Part shown: positions 24,371 to 54,460 of the stretch, piece by piece
Layout: each line of letters begins with the position of its first letter
Position numbering within the stretch: position 1 is the stretch's first letter
Assembly: GCA_031763025.1 (NCBI GenBank)
Contig: JASSKH010000012.1
Coordinates: forward strand, 310,001-374,000
From: Macrocystis pyrifera
Taxonomy: Eukaryota > Sar > Phaeophyceae > Laminariales > Laminariaceae
Direction: 5' to 3'
DNA length: 64,000 nt
Notes under the pieces: model-generated
Told to the model about the DNA's origin: nothing
The model's database searches: none
What the model saw: only the letters and a program-made list of their open reading frames with translations
Translations under genes and position numbers: made by a program

Positions 24371-25440
24371 GAATGAGTTACTTGATTTTTGTATTGTCGG
24401 CAAAATTACCTCGATTTTATCGAAGTCTGAAAAAATGACTTGATTTTAGTCTGGTCATGTTGGAATAACCTGATTTTAGTATGCTCATTTTGAAATGACT
24501 TGATTTTAGTATGGTCATTTTGAAATAACTCGATTTTAGTATGGTCACTTAGAAATAACTTGATTTTAGTCTGGTCATTTCGAAATGACTTGATTATAGT
24601 ATAGTCATTTAGAAATGACTTGATTTTAGTGTGCTCATTTCGAAATGACTTGATTTTAGTATGGTCATTTTGATACGACTTGATTTTAGTATGGTCACGT
24701 TGAAATGACTTGATTTTACCATGATCACCTTGATACGACTTGATTTAAGTATGGTCATTATGAAATGACTTGATTTTAGCTTGGTCATTTTGAAATGACT
24801 TGGTTTTAGTATGGTCATGTTGAAATGACTTGATTTTAGTATGGTCATTTTGAAATGACTTGATTTTAGTATAGTCATGTTGAAATGACTTGATTTTAGT
24901 ATGCTCATGTTGAAATCACTTGATTTTAGTATGGTCATGTTGAAATGACTTGATTTTAGTATGGTCATGTTGAAATGACTTGATTTTAGTGTGGTCATTT
25001 CGAAATGACTTGATTTTAGTATGGTCATGTTGAAATGACTTGATTTTAGTATGGTCATTTCGAAATGACTTGATTTTAGTATGGTCATGTTGAAATGACT
25101 TGATTTTAGTATGCTCATGTTGAAATGACTTGATTTTAGTATGGTCACTTTGAAATGACTTGATTTTAGTATGGTCATTTTGGAATGACTTGATTTTAGT
25201 GTGGTCATGTTGAAATGACTTGATTTTAGTGTGGTCATGTTGAAATGACTTGATTTTAGTGTGGTCATTTTGAAATGACTTGGGTTTAGTGTAGTCATGT
25301 TGAAATGACTTGATTTTTGTATGGTAATGTCGAAATGACTTGATTTTAGTATTGTCGGCCGCAAATGACTTGATTTCAGTATGGTCAACGATTTTGTACT
25401 TGGTTTTAGTATTGATTTCTGAAATGACTTGATTTTAGTG
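24371..25440. repeat. 30 bp tandem satellite
   Basis: About 33 units of the type GGTCATNTTGAAATGACTTG followed by ATTTTAGTAT, in exact 30 bp register over most of 24,470-25,330. The exact 30 bp period keeps the reverse strand open for 289 codons (24,609-25,478) as a decapeptide repeat of the type MTILKSSHFN. I regard that as a consequence of the period, not as a gene. Confidence 0.95.
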
Positions 25441-25555
25441 TGAAATGCCCTCGAAAACGTATATTTTGGGGCGAACACCTATTTAAAGTGCCCATAAGCC
25501 TATTTAAAATGACCGTAGTCTTAAATATTCGACCTTCAGTTCTATTTGCAAATAG

Positions 25556-35412: not shown

Positions 35413-35716
35413 TAATGGAGGCAAAAACCGGCGCAAAAGGCCCTTTTTCTTTATTTTTGGGGTCGCGTCATCACCACGAGGACCGGTAATACAAGTGAAT
35501 ACAACACCACAGGGTTCCCAGGATCAACGTATTCCACGTTGTTGTTCTCGCATTAACTCATCGCCACAATACAATGCAGACAAGCTCCCATAACTCTGGA
35601 GTGGAAGAAATACCTCGGTAAAAACAAAACAACCAAAGAATAGTACACACTTGATAACTGAAGCACATGTATGTCCACACGGGCATCGAGCCTCGGGCTG
35701 GGTAGAGAGGGAACCT

Positions 35717-35759
35717 CGCGCGGTCTGGCGAGTGAGCTGTTCACTCTAAGGACCGCGCG
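35717..35759 (+). promoter_or_regulatory. Two-stage hairpin in the LINE-A leader
   Basis: CGCGCGGTC (35,717-35,725) pairs perfectly with GACCGCGCG (35,751-35,759). Inside it GAGTGA (35,730-35,735) pairs with TCACTC (35,741-35,746) around a GCTGT loop, leaving a 4x4 internal loop. It ends 11 nt before the ATG at 35,771, so it could affect translation or RNA packaging. The role is inference. Confidence 0.7.
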
Positions 35760-35770
35760 GGGTGGTGGTG

Positions 35771-36007
35771 ATGAGTTTTATTTTTAACCCGGATGCCGAG
35801 GAGTTCATCCCCGAGGCAGGACGGGTACATCACCACAGCAGAGAGCGCTGCGTGGGTAACCTGGGAGAGGAGAGGCTGGCCACCGCGTGGGTACGCAAGC
35901 GCGACAGGAAGGATGGGGGTGTCGGAGTTGGCTGGGACGGCTGCACCCAACCAACGGAAACCAAGGCGCGAACCGGGCTACAAAGCGGAGAGCCAATATT
36001 ATCATAG
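35771..36007 (+). CDS. LINE-A N-terminal ORF with PAM2 motif (78 aa)
   Basis: The ATG at 35,771 opens MSFIFNPDAEEFIPEAG. Residues 5-14 (FNPDAEEFIP) fit the PAM2 consensus (L/F)NxxAxEFxP, which in other eukaryotic proteins binds the MLLE domain of cytoplasmic poly(A)-binding protein. The rest is polar and basic, with a His cluster after the motif and a GWDGCTQPTE segment, and no recognised domain. The frame ends at TAG (36,005-36,007). The following frame is the same frame and runs straight into the endonuclease ORF, so this may originally be the N terminus of one long protein of about 1,240 residues. Alternatively the TAG is a real ORF1 stop passed by read-through. Binding of poly(A)-binding protein would bring the protein to its own polyadenylated RNA; that role is inferred. 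Confidence 0.6.
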   Translation: MSFIFNPDAEEFIPEAGRVHHHSRERCVGNLGEERLATAWVRKRDRKDGGVGVGWDGCTQPTETKARTGLQSGEPILS

Positions 36008-39000
36008 AGAAAAAGAAGAGACAAAAAAAGCAAAAAAGGAGGAGGGGACGAGCCTCTCGTCGGCTGGCAAAAAAAAGCAGCACGCGAGGCTCGTAAGAGG
36101 CGGAAGGCGGCACTTGTGGTGGTAGCGACCTACAATGTGCGTACCCTGGCCGTAAAGGGGAAGAACGGGTACGGGCATGACGAGTGCGTACTTGCGAAAG
36201 GACGGCAACTCGGTTGTGACTTCATTGGTCTGCAGGAAACCCGACGGTCCGGCAACACGAGATTTCGTGCAGCTGGATACCAAGTTTTTTGTTCAGGTCA
36301 GGAAAAAACAGCAGCGAGACAAGGGTTGTATGGGGTAGGTTTAGCAGTAAAAGACTCAATATGCCGTACGTCTAAGTTCACTCAGCAGTTTATTGACGAA
36401 CGACTTATGTCTATGCGCTTTGAGTTGGACGGTCGGTGCGATGCGGTTAATTTCGTCGTTGCGTACGCCCCAACTGATTGTACCAAAGACTCCAAGCAGA
36501 AAGGCATGTTCTGGCGAAAGTTGGAGGACCTGGTTGAGCAGATTCCTGCTAAAGAGTGTTTGTTTGTGCTTATAGATGCCAATGGGCGAACTGGGGGGAG
36601 GATAGAAGGGTGCGGTGATGATGAATGTAGGGTGCTCGGAGCATACGGACGAGATGTTCGTAGTGATAACGGCAAACGGCTTTTGTCGTTCGCTACCAGT
36701 TGTAAGCTAGCGCTCACCAACACATTTTTCAGCACGCGCAAGGGCGGAATATCGCATACATACAACGGCACCAGCCTGAATGATCGTAAGCGAATCGACT
36801 ACATCCTAACTCGTCAAGTCCACCGACCTAGAGTACATAATGTTACAGTCGTCCCACAGCCCCCACCACCTGCTAAGGCTGATTCAGACCATAACATCGT
36901 GTACATCAAGGCCCGACTTAGTGGTCACTTTTCGTCTAACCGAAGATTGCTGAAACCCCCAAAACGCCGAGAATTCGACAGGCAGCTTTTCTTATCCGAT
37001 GGAGAGCGTCGACACCGAATAGTCGAGAGGGTCGTTTTCACTCTTAACCAACCTACCCAGCCTCGTAACACGTCTGGCATGGTTGAGTTTTTCACCACAA
37101 CTGTCATGAATGCTGTTGAGAAAGAGGTGCCACCTCCACCACGTCGCCACCACCGAAACGGTTGGTGTGAGACCCCCGAAACGGTGGCCGCTTTCAAAGT
37201 AGCATGGACAGCGAGGGAGGATGCGAGACAGCTCCTGCGTGTCTACCCCCGAGATAGTACAGCGTGGAAGAAGTTGAGATCCGCCTGTGCGAATCTGCAG
37301 GAAGTGGTCGCCGCAGGAGTCAATGCGTATTTTGAAGAGTACCTCGCTGAAACCGAGAAATTCCTCGCGAGTTCCGATCAACGAGGGTTCTACAAGCACC
37401 TGAAGAGTACGGTAGGGTTGCAAGGTACGAAAGCGAGGAGTGAACAGTTTATCATGGACGAGGATGGCACGCTGTTGCGAGATCAAGCGCGAATTCGTGA
37501 AAGATGGGCGGGGCACTACCACAAACTATTGAACACGAAATCGCTGAAACTTGACCCCACGATCATCGACCTAGTGCCACCACGACCGCTGAAACTATCC
37601 CTTGGAAATGAACCATCCATTGACGAGATGATGGAAGCAGTGAAGGGTATGTCAAACTGGAAAGCCGTTGGACCAGATGGTCTCCCGGTCGAAGTACTGA
37701 AACTTGACCACCCCGCTTTCGTGCAGTATTTTCACAGTATCCTTGTTAACGTTTGGGTAACGGGAGAAGTCCCCCAGCAATGGAAAGATGCGATCATAAA
37801 AACCCTTCATAAAAAGAAGGATAGAACTGATTGCAACAACTACAGAGGTATTTCGCTTGTTGCTCACGCAGGCAAGGTGTTGCTGAAAATCGTTGCGTCC
37901 CGTCTAAGCAGCTACTGCGAGACCGAGCATATACTCCCTGAAGAACAGTGTGGCTTCCGCCCCGCACGGTCAACAGTCGATATGCTGTTTGTCGTGCGCC
38001 GGTTGCAGCAGCTCGGGCGGCAGAAGAAAATCCCCCTGTACATGTGCTTTATCGACTTGCAGAAAGCGTACGACTCTGTCGACCGAGAACTGTTGTGGGA
38101 GGTACTCACACGCCTTGGTGTACCAACCAAGATGCTCACAATCATTCGCAATTTTCACGAAGGCATGCGGGCTCGCGTGCGTGCGGATGACGGTGAACAC
38201 TCGGACTGGTTCAATGTAACCCAGGGACTGCGGCAAGGCTGCGTACTATCGCCGTTACTGTTCAACGTGTTCTTCGCCGCTGCGATACACATCGTGCTGG
38301 TACGCTTCAGCAAAGACGAATGCATCGTAAGGGATTTGGTTCATCTCGAAGAGGACAGGGTTGTCGGAAAAGAGGAACCGTTGGCATGCGTGCAAAGGGC
38401 TGTGTGGGGCATGTTGTATGCAGACGATGCAGGAATAGTCTCGAAGTCGGCGGAAGGCCTTGCGAGAATGATGACAGTCATCGTGACTGTCTTCGAAGCA
38501 GTAGGTCTCACGGTATCCGAGAAGAAGACAGAGACGATGCTACTACGAACACCGGATCAGACGTTTACCACCTCACCGCTCGCGATCGAAGCTGCAGGCC
38601 AAAAGTATAAACAGACGACCCAGTTTTTGTACCTAGGAGGCATTATCCACGAGAACGCTGACCTCTCCTTCGAAATCGAGCGACGAATCCGTCTGATGCG
38701 GGCATGCCTCAAACGGTATGGTCCGGAACTGTACGATAGGACGAACGCACCGCTTAGTCTGAAAGTCCGGATGCTGAAGGCCGAGGTGATTGAGACCTTG
38801 CTGTACGGTTGCGTGACGTGGACCCTCAATGCGGACCACTTCGCCAAGCTTCGATCAGCCCACCACGAAGTCCTTCTGCGAGTCATTGGTTTCCAGCGCC
38901 GACTACGCACCGACCACACCACCCTCTCGTATGCGAAGGCGCTCAGGATAACACGATGCGAAAGTATCGAAACGACCATCCGTAAACGGCGACTCTTCTT

Positions 39001-39496
39001 TGCGGGGGCTGTGGTGCGGCAACACGAGGGGCGATTGCCCAGTCGGTTGATGTTCGGGACGATCGCTGGTGGGGGGAGCCCGAAACCAGGCGGGCAGCCT
39101 AAGACTTGGCCTAGGGCAATTGCTGACGACCTTAGAGTGTTCAAAGCCTCAGAGGGATCAACGGAAGACTCCCCCTTAGTCTTTGGAGTTGGGACCGCAC
39201 TGTGGCCCACTGCAGCAAAACAGACGGGAAAGTGGTACCGGGGAATCCTCGAAGCAGCTGAACAGTTCATGGGCAGGTGGCACGAGGCTGAGGCAAAGCT
39301 GAGTAGACAGCGCCGTGCATCCGCTGCAGGTAGTGTTAGAGGGAATGGGGGGAGGGGTAACAGCAGGAGGGGTAGAGGGAACACCGTACAAGTGTATAGG
39401 GGCAGGGGGGGGAACAGGAGGAGTAGAAGGGAAACCGCGGTAGAAGAGAGTAGCAGAGAGACCGCAGATAGGGTAGCAAGGTACCAGGCCGACTAA
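36008..39496 (+). CDS. LINE-A endonuclease-reverse transcriptase (about 1,160 codons)
   Basis: The frame opens after TAG at 36,005 with a very basic leader (Lys/Arg-rich, 36,008-36,115). Counting residues from the GTG at 36,116: APE-type endonuclease 4-265, with YNVRTL (6-11), LQETRR (39-44), DANGRTG (154-160) and catalytic SDH (257-259). Reverse transcriptase lies at about 505-850, with GPDGLPVEVL (519-528), YRGISL (576-581), CGFRPARST (612-620), FIDLQKAYDSVDR (645-657), LRQGCVLSP (705-713), catalytic YADD (768-771) and YLGG (839-842). A C-terminal LLYGCVTWTL region follows, then an Arg/Gly-rich tail (about 1,071-1,105) instead of a zinc knuckle. No ATG occurs before residue 98, which lies inside the endonuclease, so translation must come from upstream through the TAG or start at a non-ATG codon. 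All catalytic residues I can check are present. Confidence 0.9.
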   Translation, partial: RKRRDKKSKKGGGDEPLVGWQKKAAREARKRRKAALVVVATYNVRTLAVKGKNGYGHDECVLAKGRQLGCDFIGLQETRRSGNTRFRAAGYQVFCSGQEKTAARQGLYGVGLAVKDSICRTSKFTQQFIDERLMSMRFELDGRCDAVNFVVAYAPTDCTKDSKQKGMFWRKLEDLVEQIPAKECLFVLIDANGRTGGRIEGCGDDECRVLGAYGRDVRSDNGKRLLSFATSCKLALTNTFFSTRKGGISHTYNGTSLNDRKRIDYILTRQVHRPRVHNVTVVPQPPPPAKADSDHNIVYIKARLSGHFSSNRRLLKPPKRREFDRQLFLSDGERRHRIVERVVFTLNQPTQPRNTSGMVEFFTTTVMNAVEKEVPPPPRRHHRNGWCETPETVAAFKVAWTAREDARQLLRVYPRDSTAWKKLRSACANLQEVVAAGVNAYFEEYLAETEKFLASSDQRGFYKHLKSTVGLQGTKARSEQFIMDEDGTLLRDQARIRERWAGHYHKLLNTKSLKLDPTIIDLVPPRPLKLSLGNEPSIDEMMEAVKGMSNWKAVGPDGLPVEVLKLDHPAFVQYFHSILVNVWVTGEVPQQWKDAIIKTLHKKKDRTDCNNYRGISLVAHAGKVLLKIVASRLSSYCETEHILPEEQCGFRPARSTVDMLFVVRRLQQLGRQKKIPLYMCFIDLQKAYDSVDRELLWEVLTRLGVPTKMLTIIRNFHEGMRARVRADDGEHSDWFNVTQGLRQGCVLSPLLFNVFFAAAIHIVLVRFSKDECIVRDLVHLEEDRVVGKEEPLACVQRAVWGMLYADDAGIVSKSAEGLARMMTVIVTVFEAVGLTVSEKKTETMLLRTPDQTFTTSPLAIEAAGQKYKQTTQFLYLGGIIHENADLSFEIERRIRLMRACLKRYGPELYDRTNAPLSLKVRMLKAEVIETLLYGCVTWTLNADHFAKLRSAHHEVLLRVIGFQRRLRTDHTTLSYAKALRITRCESIETTIRKRRLFFAGAVVRQHEGRLPSRLMFGTIAGGGSPKPGGQPKTWPRAIADDLRVFKASEGSTEDSPLVFGVGTALWPTAAKQTGKWYRGILEAAEQFMGRWHEAEAKLSRQRRASAAGSVRGNGGRGNSRRGRGNTVQVYRGRGGNRRSRRETAVEESSRETADRVARYQAD

Positions 39497-39960
39497 TAGG
39501 TTGGACGTTTCTTTGCTACTCGTACCGCCAACTGCTGCGGCCGTTCGGTATGCATTTTGATTTTTTTCCCTTCTTATCCTTACGAAAGAAGTACTACATA
39601 GTGGGTGGGTGACGAGCGTATTTTGGCCCACTCACTATTGCTCTTTTTACTTAGTTAAGCGTTCACCAGGATGCATAGTCCCCTTTTTCCTTCTCGTATC
39701 TTTCCCCTTGCACGTCCCTTTTGGCTCATGCTCGGGGTAAGTATGTATGTGTCTGAGCTTTGGCTTCCCATTTTATTTATTTATTTGGGATTCTTCTCCT
39801 TTTCTTTTTCTTTTTCTTGTTCTTTTTCGGTTTGGTTTTTTTCGTTGCTTCTCTTTCTTTATGGTGTATTTTGGTTGCTGGCGTATGTATGTATGTTGTG
39901 TCGGCCGCACCTAGTGCGAAGGCATGGTATTACGTAGGCTATTAATGCATTACGGTGTGT
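39497..39960 (+). other. LINE-A 3' untranslated region
   Basis: No ORF of note. It contains a pyrimidine-rich stretch (about 39,770-39,860, TTCTTTTTCTTTTTC-like) and GTATGTATGT words near 39,885. I see no long poly(A) at the end, so the tail type is unresolved. Confidence 0.5.
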
Positions 39961-39971
39961 TATCTCTGTGT

Positions 39972-40097
39972 CGTAGTCTGTGACCACAGAGCTCGTATCT
40001 TTCTAGGGTGAAGAATCAGCACGGACACTGGGCTTGCTGGATGTCGACGAGTAGAAGAACGGTTTAATGTGAAGAACACACACACACACACACACCT
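39972..40097. repeat. Dispersed repeat next to the LINE-A end, with (CA)n
   Basis: CTGTGACCACAGA, then AGAATC(A/G)GCACGGACACTGG and GGATGTCGAC, ending in a (CA)n run at 40,076-40,096. The same order occurs at about 43,791-43,912 and 46,018-46,135. This marks where LINE-A stops. Confidence 0.7.
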
Positions 40098-50324: not shown

Positions 50325-53300
50325 TGAACACAAACAAGCTGGAGATATTCTCGGAAGAGATTAGGAGAAAGACGGTGAGGAAGGGTGGGTGGAGAAAGAA
50401 AGATTGGTAGGGTAAAGTACTAGTAGTGCTGATATTTGGAGTTCCTAGCGACATGACAAGGATTGAGTTCAAGAGGAAGTGCGACGAAGTAGGACTGTAT
50501 TGCTTCGCAATAGGAAACGTAGAACGAGAAGGAGAACACTTTCGAGTCACTCTGAAGCTGAAAGCGAGCATGGAATGGCAGAGGATAGAGACAGAAAAAG
50601 TGTCGGCATGGGTTAGAAGACTAGGATGGAGAGTATGCATAGCAAATGGAATATCGAAACTAAGACGCAGCCCTAGGGTGAACGAAGGTAGGGGGAGGCA
50701 AGAAACAGCAGGTGGCTCAAAGGGAATGGGGGAGAAACATAGCTCAGAACAAGCAGACAAGAACAGGAACGGAAACGAAAATAATGCTCAAAGAAGAGAT
50801 AACGGAAATACTCGTGGCGACAACGGAGAACGAACAGGTAAGACTAGAGCGGATAGTGAAACGAAAAGGAGGCTGAGAATAGGATCATGGAACGTATGTG
50901 GCTTCGCCACGGAAGAGCGCAAAAGAATCGAAATTGCCGAACAAGTAAGTAAGCGCGACCTAGACATAGTGGGAATTCAAGAGTCGTGGGAGAAAGAAGG
51001 AGGGGAGATAGGATCCAAAGTTGGAGAGTACGCATGGATAGGGAAAACGAGGAAGGGACAGAATAGCAAGAATAGGGGGGCGGGGGGTGTGGGGTTCCTA
51101 GTCAAAGAATACATGTGTGACATAATAGAGGTGATCAAAGACACTAAATTCGACGAAAGCATATGGATTAAGATTCCAGGGGAGCGGGGAGCGAAATATT
51201 ACCTCTTAGGAAACATATATATATGCCCCCAGAGTCGAAGAATACGATAAAAGATATACAGAGGAAGTTCAGAGAAGTAGCAGTAGATGTACAGAAGTAT
51301 AAGAGGCAAGAAGAAGTAGTACTAGTGGGAGATTTTAACTCAAGAATTGGGAGGGCAAGCAAACTGAATGAGAACATTGGACAGTATGGGGAAGTAACTA
51401 AGAATAAGAATGGGGAAGAGATGTTGAAGTTCCTCAAGCACAACGAGATGAAAACGTTGAACGACAGAGTAAAAAAGGCAGAACCGGAATGGACTAGACA
51501 GTGCATACAAAAGGGAGAAAGCTCTGTCCTTGACTTTATAGTAGTAGGAAATGGAAGTGGTAAGGAAACGGAACTACATGTATGCGCAGCGGACATAGGA
51601 ACTACGGATCACTGTCTAATACGGACAGACAGTCAACAGACGAGAGTTATCAAACATAGAAGAGGTAGGAAATTGTATCGATGGAGAATAGATAAACTAG
51701 AAGTAAAAGAGAAACGGGAAGAGTTCCAAGAAGAGATGGCCAAAAATGCAGAGAAATTTTACGAGCTGTTGGAAATAATAGGTACAACAAGGAAAGATAT
51801 AGAAAGGGATGATGCAGGAGCTAGGATAATAGAAGGATGGGAGCAGTTGGTCAAGACCACAGCAAGTAAAGTAAAAGGGAAGAAGTTGATAGTATGCAAC
51901 AGAGCGGTAAAATGGTGGGATGAAGAAGTGAAAGAGGCTATAAGAGCAAGGAGAAAGGCACACGCAAGGTATACATCGAGTAAAACTTCGACAGGGTGGG
52001 AGGAGTATACTATAGCTAGAAAGAAAGTAAAAGAGATGGTAGAGAAGAAGAAGAAAGGGATATGGAAAGACGTAGTAAATAAAACAAATGAAGACTTTGA
52101 GGGCGGGATGAAGCAGATGTGGGTGGGGATAAAAGGGATACTTGGTAGACAAGCAGGAGAGGCAGACACGGGAATAGCTACTCTAAGAACACAGAACGGT
52201 AAAATGGTTATTAGTTCGAAGGGGAAATGGGAGGTACTAGTAGAGCATTACCGAAAGCTAGGAACACCCACAGCCAACGAAACGTTCGATGCAGAATTCG
52301 AGAAGCAAATCAACGCGTGGGCAGACGCGAACGTAGATACATCAGAAAGGGAAGACAGTGGTTCGGGAGGGTTACAGAGAGAGTTCACAAGGGAAGAGGT
52401 AAAGAAGTGTGTAGCTAAACTTAAGAATAGAAAGGCAGCAGGGGCAGACCAAATAGTGAATGAATTTATGAAGTACGGGGAAGAAGGAATGCTTACCATG
52501 ATGTTTATGTTGTATAACTGGATATGGAAAAACGAATACGCACCTAGGAGGTGGAGAGAAGGAGTACCAGTAAATATATTCAAGAAAAGAGATAAGGCTG
52601 ACCCGGGGAACTATAGAGGGATAACGCTACTAAGCACAGTAGGTAAAATATTTTGTGATTTTGAACGATAGAATGGGAACGATGATGGAGAAGGAAGACA
52701 AAATAAGCGAAGGACAAGCAGGGTTTAGGCCAAACCGTAGCTGCGTAGACCATGTGTACACCTTAGGTAAGATTATTCAAGGTAGGAAAGACGCGGGACT
52801 AACAACGTACTGTTTCTTTCTAGATGTGCAGAAAGCCTACGACACAGGATGGAGAAATTGATTGTGGAAAAAACTGTGGGAAATAGGAATCAGAGGAAAG
52901 ATGTGGAGAATGATGAAAAAGATGACGGAATGTGCGAGAAGTGCTGTGATGATGGACGGGGAAATATCGAAGTATGTTGATATTTTACAAGGTGTTGCAC
53001 AGGGATGTACGTTGTCACCTAACTTATTACATAATATATTTATATTAACGACCTGATAGTAGCAGTTGAGGGAGCAAGGCAGGGAGTCACGGTAAGGGAA
53101 GATACGGTGTCGGGATTGATGTTTGCGGATGACTTCGTGGGGATATCAGAAACACCCGAAGGATTGCAGAAACAAATAGAGAAGGCGCTAGAATACACCA
53201 GGAAATGGAGGGTGACGGCGAACGTCAAGAAATGCGCAGTAGTTGTTTGCAACGAAGATAAGGTAAACCCCGTAAGTTTCAGTTGGAAGTGGGGAGAAAA

Positions 53301-54460
53301 TGAATTGCCGATCGTAGACCAGTATACATACCTTGGCGTAGAGATCTCTAAAGACTGCTGTTGGGATACACATATAGCAAAAGTAATAGGAAAGGGTAAG
53401 GCACAAGTAGGCAAGATGGAGGCGATCCTAACAGACCAGAACCTTAACACTAGGATTAAGAGATGTATCTTGCTGAATATGATAGTACCAAAGCTAGAAT
53501 ATGCAGGAGAAGTATGGGAAGGGAACGCGAAACTCGTAAAACAGTTGGAAACAGTACAAATTACAGCAGCTAAAAAAATCCTAAGATGCTGAAGTACGAC
53601 TAGTAATACAGTATTAAGAGCAGAACTGGGAATGCGCCCACTCAAGACAAATAGAGACATGAGAAAGTTGAACTAGCAATATAAAGCAAGGAACATGCCA
53701 AAAAAGAGTGTTGCTAGCCATAGTTGATAGAGCTGTATGGGAGAAAATATCAAAAGGGCCAGCTGGAATAAGGTGGGATGGCGTAGTTGAGAAAGTATGG
53801 AAGGATCTAGGGGGAAACCAAGTAGAGATGATGTCCGCCGGGAAGTTTGGGACGTACAAGGCAGACGTAGGAGAAAGGATAGAAAGAAGGGAAAGGCCAG
53901 CGCTAAGAAACAAGGTGGAATCGGAAAAACACTTAGAGATATACGGGGGATTGAGGGAAGGAATAGGAATGAAAACGTATTTCCATGGCCCAATGGACTT
54001 CGCGAAAACGCTGAAACTGCGCTTTCGTGTAGGGGACCTGGACCTGCCAGAAAGAAGAAAGGGGTACACCAGTAGCCGGGAAGAGGAGGAAGTAGACGCA
54101 CAGATGTGCCCGTGTGGCAAAGCAATATAGAGTAGAACTCACATAGTAGGAGTATGTGAAATATACAAGGAGGAACGGGATTTGTTAGAGGAGATGAGGA
54201 AAATAGACGAATGTGACATGGAGGAGTTTGATACAATGAATAGCAGCGAGAAAACGATCGCTATCCTAGGAGATAGATGGTGCCCACAGGAGGCCAAACA
54301 GGAAGGGGATAAGATTAGCAAAAAGTTTCTATGTAATTTATTGAAACAACGTAATGAGCGCCCAATTGTTGGAGGTGTCTCTATTAGGAGTAGGAACGGT
54401 GCTCCGTCTCGAAAGGGATGCGTGGTCAATGGTCAAATGACTAAGGCAAGCAACAAATGA
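50325..54460 (+). pseudogene. LINE-B polyprotein remnant (RRM-like, endonuclease, reverse transcriptase)
   Basis: From the ATG at 50,325 a short frame leads into 50,426-51,250: VLIFGVPSDMTRIEF looks like the first strand and helix of an RRM-type fold. A low-complexity linker follows, then endonuclease with GSWNVCGF and GIQESWEK. A frameshift at a C run near 51,225 moves the frame to 51,223-52,671: LVGDFNSRIG, TTDHCLIR, then RT motifs KAAGADQIVNEF and NYRGITLLSTVGK. After a second shift near 52,660 come GFRPNRSCVDH and FFLDVQKAYD, an in-frame stop at 52,859, QGCTLSP (52,998), another shift, and the catalytic LMFADD near 53,113-53,130. A TGA at 53,590 and more breaks follow. At least six disruptions show it is dead. 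The order matches LINEs of the CR1/Jockey/L2 type; the clade is inference. Confidence 0.85.

Follow-up and report, generated by a model that had tools for sequence, protein, structure and literature searches.

The window, by which we mean the whole 64,000-nt stretch of Macrocystis pyrifera DNA analysed here, carries a copy of a LINE (LINE-A) whose start codon at 35771 opens the peptide MSFIFNPDAEEFIP, encoded by ATG AGT TTT ATT TTT AAC CCG GAT GCC GAG GAG TTC ATC CCC (35771-35812). The parts of this copy are collected in Table 1. Alignment shows that about 65 nt of the 5' UTR present in another copy, L011, are absent from the window copy. Elements with a full 5' end (L011 and others) begin with GGCCTGCCCCGTCCTTGGGGTGGGCC, and a similar hairpin is found upstream in L090, a relative described below. 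A second LINE at 50411-54100 is of another type, purine-rich and frame-broken, with pieces of endonuclease and reverse transcriptase (RT), and a pattern search in six frames found no PAM2-type match in it (50.4-54 kb). The window also holds an ORF with pentapeptide repeats on the minus strand at 24609-25478 (Pentapeptide_4, 102.3 bits).

Table 1. Features of the LINE-A copy in the window
Feature	Position	Strand	Basis or remark
LINE-A copy ending in (AC)n	35675-40095	+	alignment with 20 near-identical copies
Stem-loop CGCGCGGUC...GACCGCGCG, just 5' of the start codon	35717-35759	+	folding in A, B and X; altered form in C
9-bp stem with the start codon, 5' arm GUGGUGAUG	35765-35773	+	common to four lineages
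PAM2-type motif MSFIFNPDAEEFIP, N terminus	35771-35812	+	translation, Pfam, conservation
78-aa ORF of the broken window copy	35771-36007	+	stop TAG 36005-36007
PAM2 core FNPDAEEFIP	35783-35812	+	N, P, A, E, F, P invariant in four lineages
9-bp start-codon stem, 3' arm CAUCACCAC	35828-35836		common to four lineages
GGG, frame-shifting, one base short compared with 20/20 copies	35863-35865	+	copy alignment
Remaining LINE frame: basic region, endonuclease, reverse transcriptase, Arg/Gly-rich tail	36008-39496	+	
Frame-shifting run of 8 A; 7 A in 17/20 compared copies	36069-36076	+	copy alignment
Exo_endo_phos, APE-type endonuclease domain	36125-36892	+	Pfam PF03372, 31.2 bits
Reverse transcriptase domain	37811-38638	+	Pfam PF00078, 120.1 bits
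Arg/Gly-rich (RGG-like) C-terminal tail, limits approximate	39330-39450	+	read off the translation
(AC)n 3' end of LINE-A	40076-40095	+	same end about 4.27 kb past the motif in 19/20 copies

Alignment with the 20 copies shows that two 1-nt indels disrupt the frame of the window copy: because a base is missing from the GGG and an A is added to the A run (Table 1), the motif in the window opens a 78-aa ORF only. The copies came from a 5'-end search that gave 826 first-look candidates, the best 40 of which were scored; one was the window itself, and the next 20 were fetched. In six of the 20 (L011, L013, L015, L016, L020, and L021) a single 1,241-aa ORF runs unbroken from the PAM2 Met through the endonuclease and the RT, which makes the motif the N-terminal end of the complete LINE protein. 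The placement of the motif at a LINE N terminus in the preliminary description thus holds for the intact copies, where there is one ORF, but not for the window copy, whose short frame ends at the TAG at 36005. Nineteen of the 20 copies read the motif in the frame of the ATG; L023, with a 1-nt insertion between the two, is the exception. In L016, Glu replaces Asp8. A copy of another family, B (L105), has a 1,242-aa ORF beginning MFFLLNPDAKEFIP. The order of the protein is PAM2 motif, linker, basic region (residues about 81-115), endonuclease, RT, and Arg/Gly tail. Its identity as a LINE follows from an APE-type endonuclease (PF03372) and an RT (PF00078) within one ORF, and from many dispersed copies with a common 3' end (826 candidates; (AC)n in 19/20). 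The solved chains nearest to the RT domain of L011 are those of LINE-1 ORF2p and R2, and the best for the whole L011 protein are those of LINE-1 ORF2p.

The ATG-led, PAM2-like peptide proposed in the preliminary description was recovered when the window was read and translated, and FNPDAEEFIP agrees with (L/F)NxxAxEFxP at all core positions, as had been claimed. Cellular proteins with PAM2 include PAIP1, PAIP2, ataxin-2, eRF3, TOB, and PAN3, with the core consensus LNPxAxEFxP; these are products of host genes, whereas the kelp motif sits on a retrotransposon enzyme. The core of one LINE copy, LNPNAKEFVP in L106, is identical to the PAIP2 core. For the 78-aa ORF, Pfam lists one family, PAM2 (PF07145), which scores 14.9 bits where the cut-off is 20. 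LINE proteins scanned whole score 14.2-19.0 bits, also under Pfam's 20, and the family is unlisted for full-length L011; human PAM2 peptides score 27.9-37.3 bits with the same model. When the genome was searched in six frames with Pfam PAM2 (best 150 of 398 candidates scored), known LINE copies reached 20.6-25.5 bits and L106 reached 27; L069, L073, L064, and L105 are among the copies above 20 bits, and a non-LINE place, L068, also passes the cut-off (20.5 bits). A search of solved structures with the first 25 residues of the LINE protein gave no match at E up to 10. The pattern [LFPVIM][NP]xxAx[EPAS]FxP has a single match in the six frames of the window, which is the LINE-A N terminus, and the stricter [LF]NxxAxEFxP occurs once in the window and in none of 150 simulated 64-kb windows (second-order Markov). 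Genome-wide, DNA coding for NPxAxEFxP occurs 376 times (188 + 188), versus 2 times (1 + 1) for the reversed pattern.

Several subfamilies, at about 70-85% nucleotide identity, retain the motif, with the core forms FNPDAEEFIP in A, LNPDAKEFIP in B, FNPNAEEFVP in C, and FNPNAKEFVP in L108, in addition to that of L106. The A form has 150 occurrences within 3 mismatches, all of them exact among the matches listed, and many family A copies are near-identical. Of eight places retrieved with other motif forms, six are divergent copies of LINE-A type (L062, L063, L064, L066, L067, and L069), and at two (L065 and L068) the motif match lies away from any LINE 5' end. Because pattern matches carry the motif by construction, we also sampled copies through the endonuclease, using the start of the family C endonuclease as query and scoring the best 150 of 1,177 candidates; about 30 of these 150 lie in open frames of at least 1,200 aa, as judged by eye. 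We took the 5' regions of 7 further family C matches and of the first 13 family B matches. Seven of the eight family C copies (L064 included) reach the 5' end, L071 being the exception, and NPxAxEFxP is present in five of the seven; the changes are Leu for Phe12 in L070 and Ala for Pro7 in L075, and L073 and L074 are without the ATG. In family B, all copies except L087 reach the 5' end (12/13), and all 12 retain the motif region, with exact NPDAKEFIP in 10, Tyr for Phe12 in L082, and Asp for Asn6 in L085; the ATG is in frame in 9 of the 12. Such single changes are expected, since several of these copies have broken frames.

A search of contigs from other genomes found two related loci, L090 and L091, in JALZUO01, a bin labelled bacterial. 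L090 has an unbroken 955-aa frame from MRFSLNPDAEEFTP into the RT, up to the contig end, with 71% amino acid identity in the best segment and 66% over query residues 1-398. The closest kelp DNA is 74% identical to it at the nucleotide level (best 40 of 1,037 candidates), so L090 is not one of the kelp families seen in that comparison. The bin is labelled Oligoflexales bacterium, and because it holds LINE contigs of eukaryotic type it is probably contaminated. L091 shows 49% amino acid identity in its best segment, and its contig starts inside the endonuclease, so that the N terminus is absent; no second copy was found in the JALZUO01 assembly. A search with L091 as query returned further families at 52-75% to L091, from which 13 upstream regions were taken. 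One, L103, belongs to family C and reads FNPNAEEFVP. Two (L095 and L098) align only from inside the frame and L102 aligns to neither query, which leaves the start region uncovered in these three. The nine L091-type relatives that reach the start region, most of them decayed, show no canonical PAM2; they are family E (L092, L093, L094, L100, and L101) and family F (L096, L097, L099, and L104). L092 and L101 have MASDMAEIFLAEF after the ATG in a similar setting, with the register set by eye; we rejected it as a PAM2, since the A and F are kept but the N and P are not. PAM2 may have been gained in the clade of A, B, C, and L090, or lost in E and F. Among viral contigs, 22 stretches matched the pattern and 0 were confirmed as relatives.

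We then measured constraint with Nei-Gojobori counts on one representative of each of four lineages (A, L011; B, L105; C, L064; X, L090; six pairs). The pN/pS ratio is 0.10-0.34 in the motif (residues 5-14), 0.71-0.82 in the linker (residues 15-80), 0.18-0.34 in the basic region (81-115), and 0.19-0.29 in the endonuclease from residue 116; taken over all of residues 2-14, it is 0.11-0.60. Within residues 5-14, N, P, A, E, F, and P are invariant, and replacements occur only at positions 5 (F/L), 8, 10, and 13. All 6 core residues are invariant against 22 of the 66 linker codons (Fisher p = 0.0024), a modest statistic given that the motif has 10 codons. Codons change synonymously at P7, F12, and P14 and not at N6, A9, and E11 among the four representatives; in other copies, synonymous AAT at N6 and GCT at A9 occur in L067, and GCT also in L045 and L114. 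The preliminary description had predicted an excess of synonymous over non-synonymous change at the Asn, Ala, Glu, and Phe positions. Constraint at the protein level is indeed seen, and the Phe codon varies only synonymously, but the Asn, Ala, and Glu codons are unchanged among the four representatives. Chance resemblance preserved by recent common descent would be in keeping with the near-identity of many family A copies; it is nevertheless extremely improbable in view of the excess of the pattern over its reverse, the conservation in L090 at 71% amino acid identity, and a pN/pS below that of the adjacent linker.

The level at which the motif is held was judged from synonymous divergence. The pS of the motif (0.47-0.83) is about as in the endonuclease (0.50-0.66), so the motif appears to be held at the protein level. 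In the linker (35813-36010) synonymous divergence is low (pS 0.16-0.41), which indicates that it is held partly at the nucleotide level and suggests an RNA element inside the coding region; part of the motif conservation could therefore also lie at the RNA level. RNA structures are predicted close by. The start codon lies inside a 9-bp stem (35765-35836) whose loop encodes PAM2; all four lineages keep the stem, C having C-G in place of one U-A pair and X a U-G pair. The stem-loop just upstream is strong; A, B, and L090 share it, some of the changes between them being compensatory, and C has an altered version. An Rfam search with L011, L105, L090, and L064 (E up to 5) gave four matches, all under the gathering scores. 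One could suppose that conservation acts wholly on RNA, the loop of the start-codon stem happening to encode a peptide without a partner, and both the stem, with its U-A to C-G change, and the low divergence of the linker agree with this. We consider it very unlikely, since the motif shows about the synonymous divergence of the endonuclease and its replacements are confined to four positions. Taken over the copies and lineages compared, sequence analysis confirms that a PAM2-type motif at the LINE N terminus is real and conserved. The preliminary description had named absence of the motif or the ATG from other full-length copies, and neutral codons, as findings that would speak against it; we looked for each, and found the motif and the ATG kept (6/20 copies intact; B and C sampled through the endonuclease) and the codons constrained.

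A partner for such a motif is predicted in the same genome. Two kelp places score over the cut-off for the MLLE domain (PF00658; E 0.001): one, on C208, spans two exons, and the other, on C201, is an intronless copy. The C208 sequence, with its exons joined by hand, matches the MLLE of Polyadenylate-binding protein 1, presumably the human entry, at 82.9 bits; poly(A)-binding protein (PABP) entries top the list of matches, followed by UBR5/HYD, and three further PABP entries rank below UBR5. The peptide-binding signature KITGMLLE of C208 spans the hand-made exon join, and C201 reads KITDMLLE. The kelp genome is thus predicted to encode an MLLE domain of PABP type, as judged from the MLLE sequence. 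The C201 copy (C201:7875684, L029) is intronless where the C208 gene has its intron, and its RRM4-like piece lies on the opposite strand from the linker and MLLE; twin priming would give this arrangement, and the copy resembles a 5'-inverted retrocopy. No A tract is present right after its coding end. The genome may also encode PAM2 proteins of its own. Ten places were picked among ranks 1 to 24 of the PAM2 search; nine are copies of LINE-A type, and one is not. The latter, L109 (C204:3524750-3525250), carries the PAM2-like SLNPQASEFIPSG within an open frame of 324 aa, does not match the LINE, and is a candidate host PAM2 protein.

The 3' end bears on what PABP binding could be for. In 19 of the 20 copies the element ends in ...GAAGAACACACAC(AC)n at about 4.26-4.35 kb past the motif, followed by unrelated flank; in L024 such ends occur only at other distances (-430 and 2,966), with none at the expected place. 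None of the 19 copies with the end at the expected place has six consecutive A's in the next 15 bases, and none has a 3' poly(A) tract of LINE-1 type. RTE-type LINEs have a single main ORF, an N-terminal APE-type endonuclease, and short tandem repeats at the 3' end, and we know of none with a PAM2. The kelp LINE resembles them, as far as these general features go, in its single ORF, its APE-type endonuclease, and its tandem-repeat 3' end, which lacks poly(A) in 19 of 20 copies. The preliminary description held that the motif would give the element access to its own poly(A) for copying, a proposal at odds with 19 copies of 20 ending in (AC)n and no A tract. In its broader form, in which PAM2 leads the enzyme to poly(A) RNA of any origin (its own, SINE, or host mRNA) for reverse transcription, the proposal could draw on the apparent presence of a host mRNA retrocopy, the intronless PABP MLLE copy on C201. 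This we regard as quite unlikely, given the (AC)n ends of 19 of the 20 copies and the lack of an A tract right after the coding end of that retrocopy. Because the 3' end is (AC)n, poly(A) priming is a less likely purpose of PABP docking than translation, RNP assembly, or cis-preference. Any binding of PAM2 to PABP would occur on a polyadenylated transcript, polyadenylation itself being presumed, or in trans.

Because the peptide has persisted while the sequence next to it diverged, the LINE probably uses the host PABP directly. The reading we favour, and hold to be fairly probable on sequence grounds, is that of a single-ORF LINE with a functional PAM2 at the start of its protein, which would dock on MLLE for cytoplasmic assembly. 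The N terminus of the nascent protein would bind the MLLE of a PABP that occupies the poly(A) tail of the mRNA under translation, and the basic region and the Arg/Gly tail would then bind the same RNA. This would favour capture of the element's own mRNA (cis-preference), RNP assembly, and continued translation, and the endonuclease-RT would later prime on the element's own (AC)n 3' end. Since that end is (AC)n, PABP docking would be a step of cytoplasmic assembly and not of priming. PAM2 might instead be mainly a device for translation or stability, occupying MLLE so that deadenylation or repressor proteins of the TOB, PAN3, and PAIP2 types stay away from PABP, or raising translation, without a part in selecting the RNA that is copied. 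With an (AC)n end, priming has no obvious need of PABP, PAM2 proteins of these three types are known among host proteins, and the genome contains the PAM2-like stretch of L109, all of which would suit such a device. We nonetheless think it unlikely: the endonuclease-RT itself carries the motif, an arrangement that suggests the enzyme is tethered. Extending the docking reading, we see about an even chance that a LINE clade, known from kelp and at least one further DNA source, built PAM2-MLLE docking into the N terminus of its sole protein, the enzyme thereby joining the PABP of its own mRNA during synthesis.

The nearest known parallel is human LINE-1. Its ORF2p has a linker site, PIE (residues 272-297), predicted with AlphaFold3 to bind RRM1 of PABPC1; in PIE mutants both retrotransposition and co-localisation are lost, and the contact is proposed by the authors to act co-translationally and to give cis-preference (PMC7617806). 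The PIE site is also cited in PMC12632535, where PAM2, in the portion of the article drawn on here, is named only for LARP1 and ataxin-2 proteins. PABPC1 and PABPC4 are stable components of the cytoplasmic LINE-1 RNP, an association that may run through poly(A) (PMC5821459). The words PAM2 and MLLE have 0 occurrences in PMC7617806 and PMC5821459, and among titles and abstract starts in open-licence PMC we found no report of PAM2 in a LINE. The likeness to LINE-1 is a LINE enzyme in direct contact with cytoplasmic PABP, a contact that is predicted for the kelp element. The differences are that the LINE-1 linker is predicted to meet RRM1, whereas the N-terminal PAM2 of the kelp LINE would meet MLLE, and that LINE-1 cis-preference requires a poly(A) tail (PMC7617806), whereas the kelp LINE ends in (AC)n. 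The kelp LINE may therefore work like the PABP contact of LINE-1, with a different peptide, a different PABP domain, and a different tail. Unlike in LINE-1, docking on PABP would have no tie to poly(A) priming, since the copies carry (AC)n at their ends.

It has long been asked how the protein of a LINE recognises its own mRNA. The motif is short, and one or two residue changes would be enough for a test. If the docking reading is true, a second LINE that acts on PABP, through PAM2 and MLLE, would represent convergent use of the same host protein. The (AC)n tail would then allow the role of PABP in RNP assembly to be separated from its role at a poly(A) end, and cis-preference would be separable from the choice of tail.
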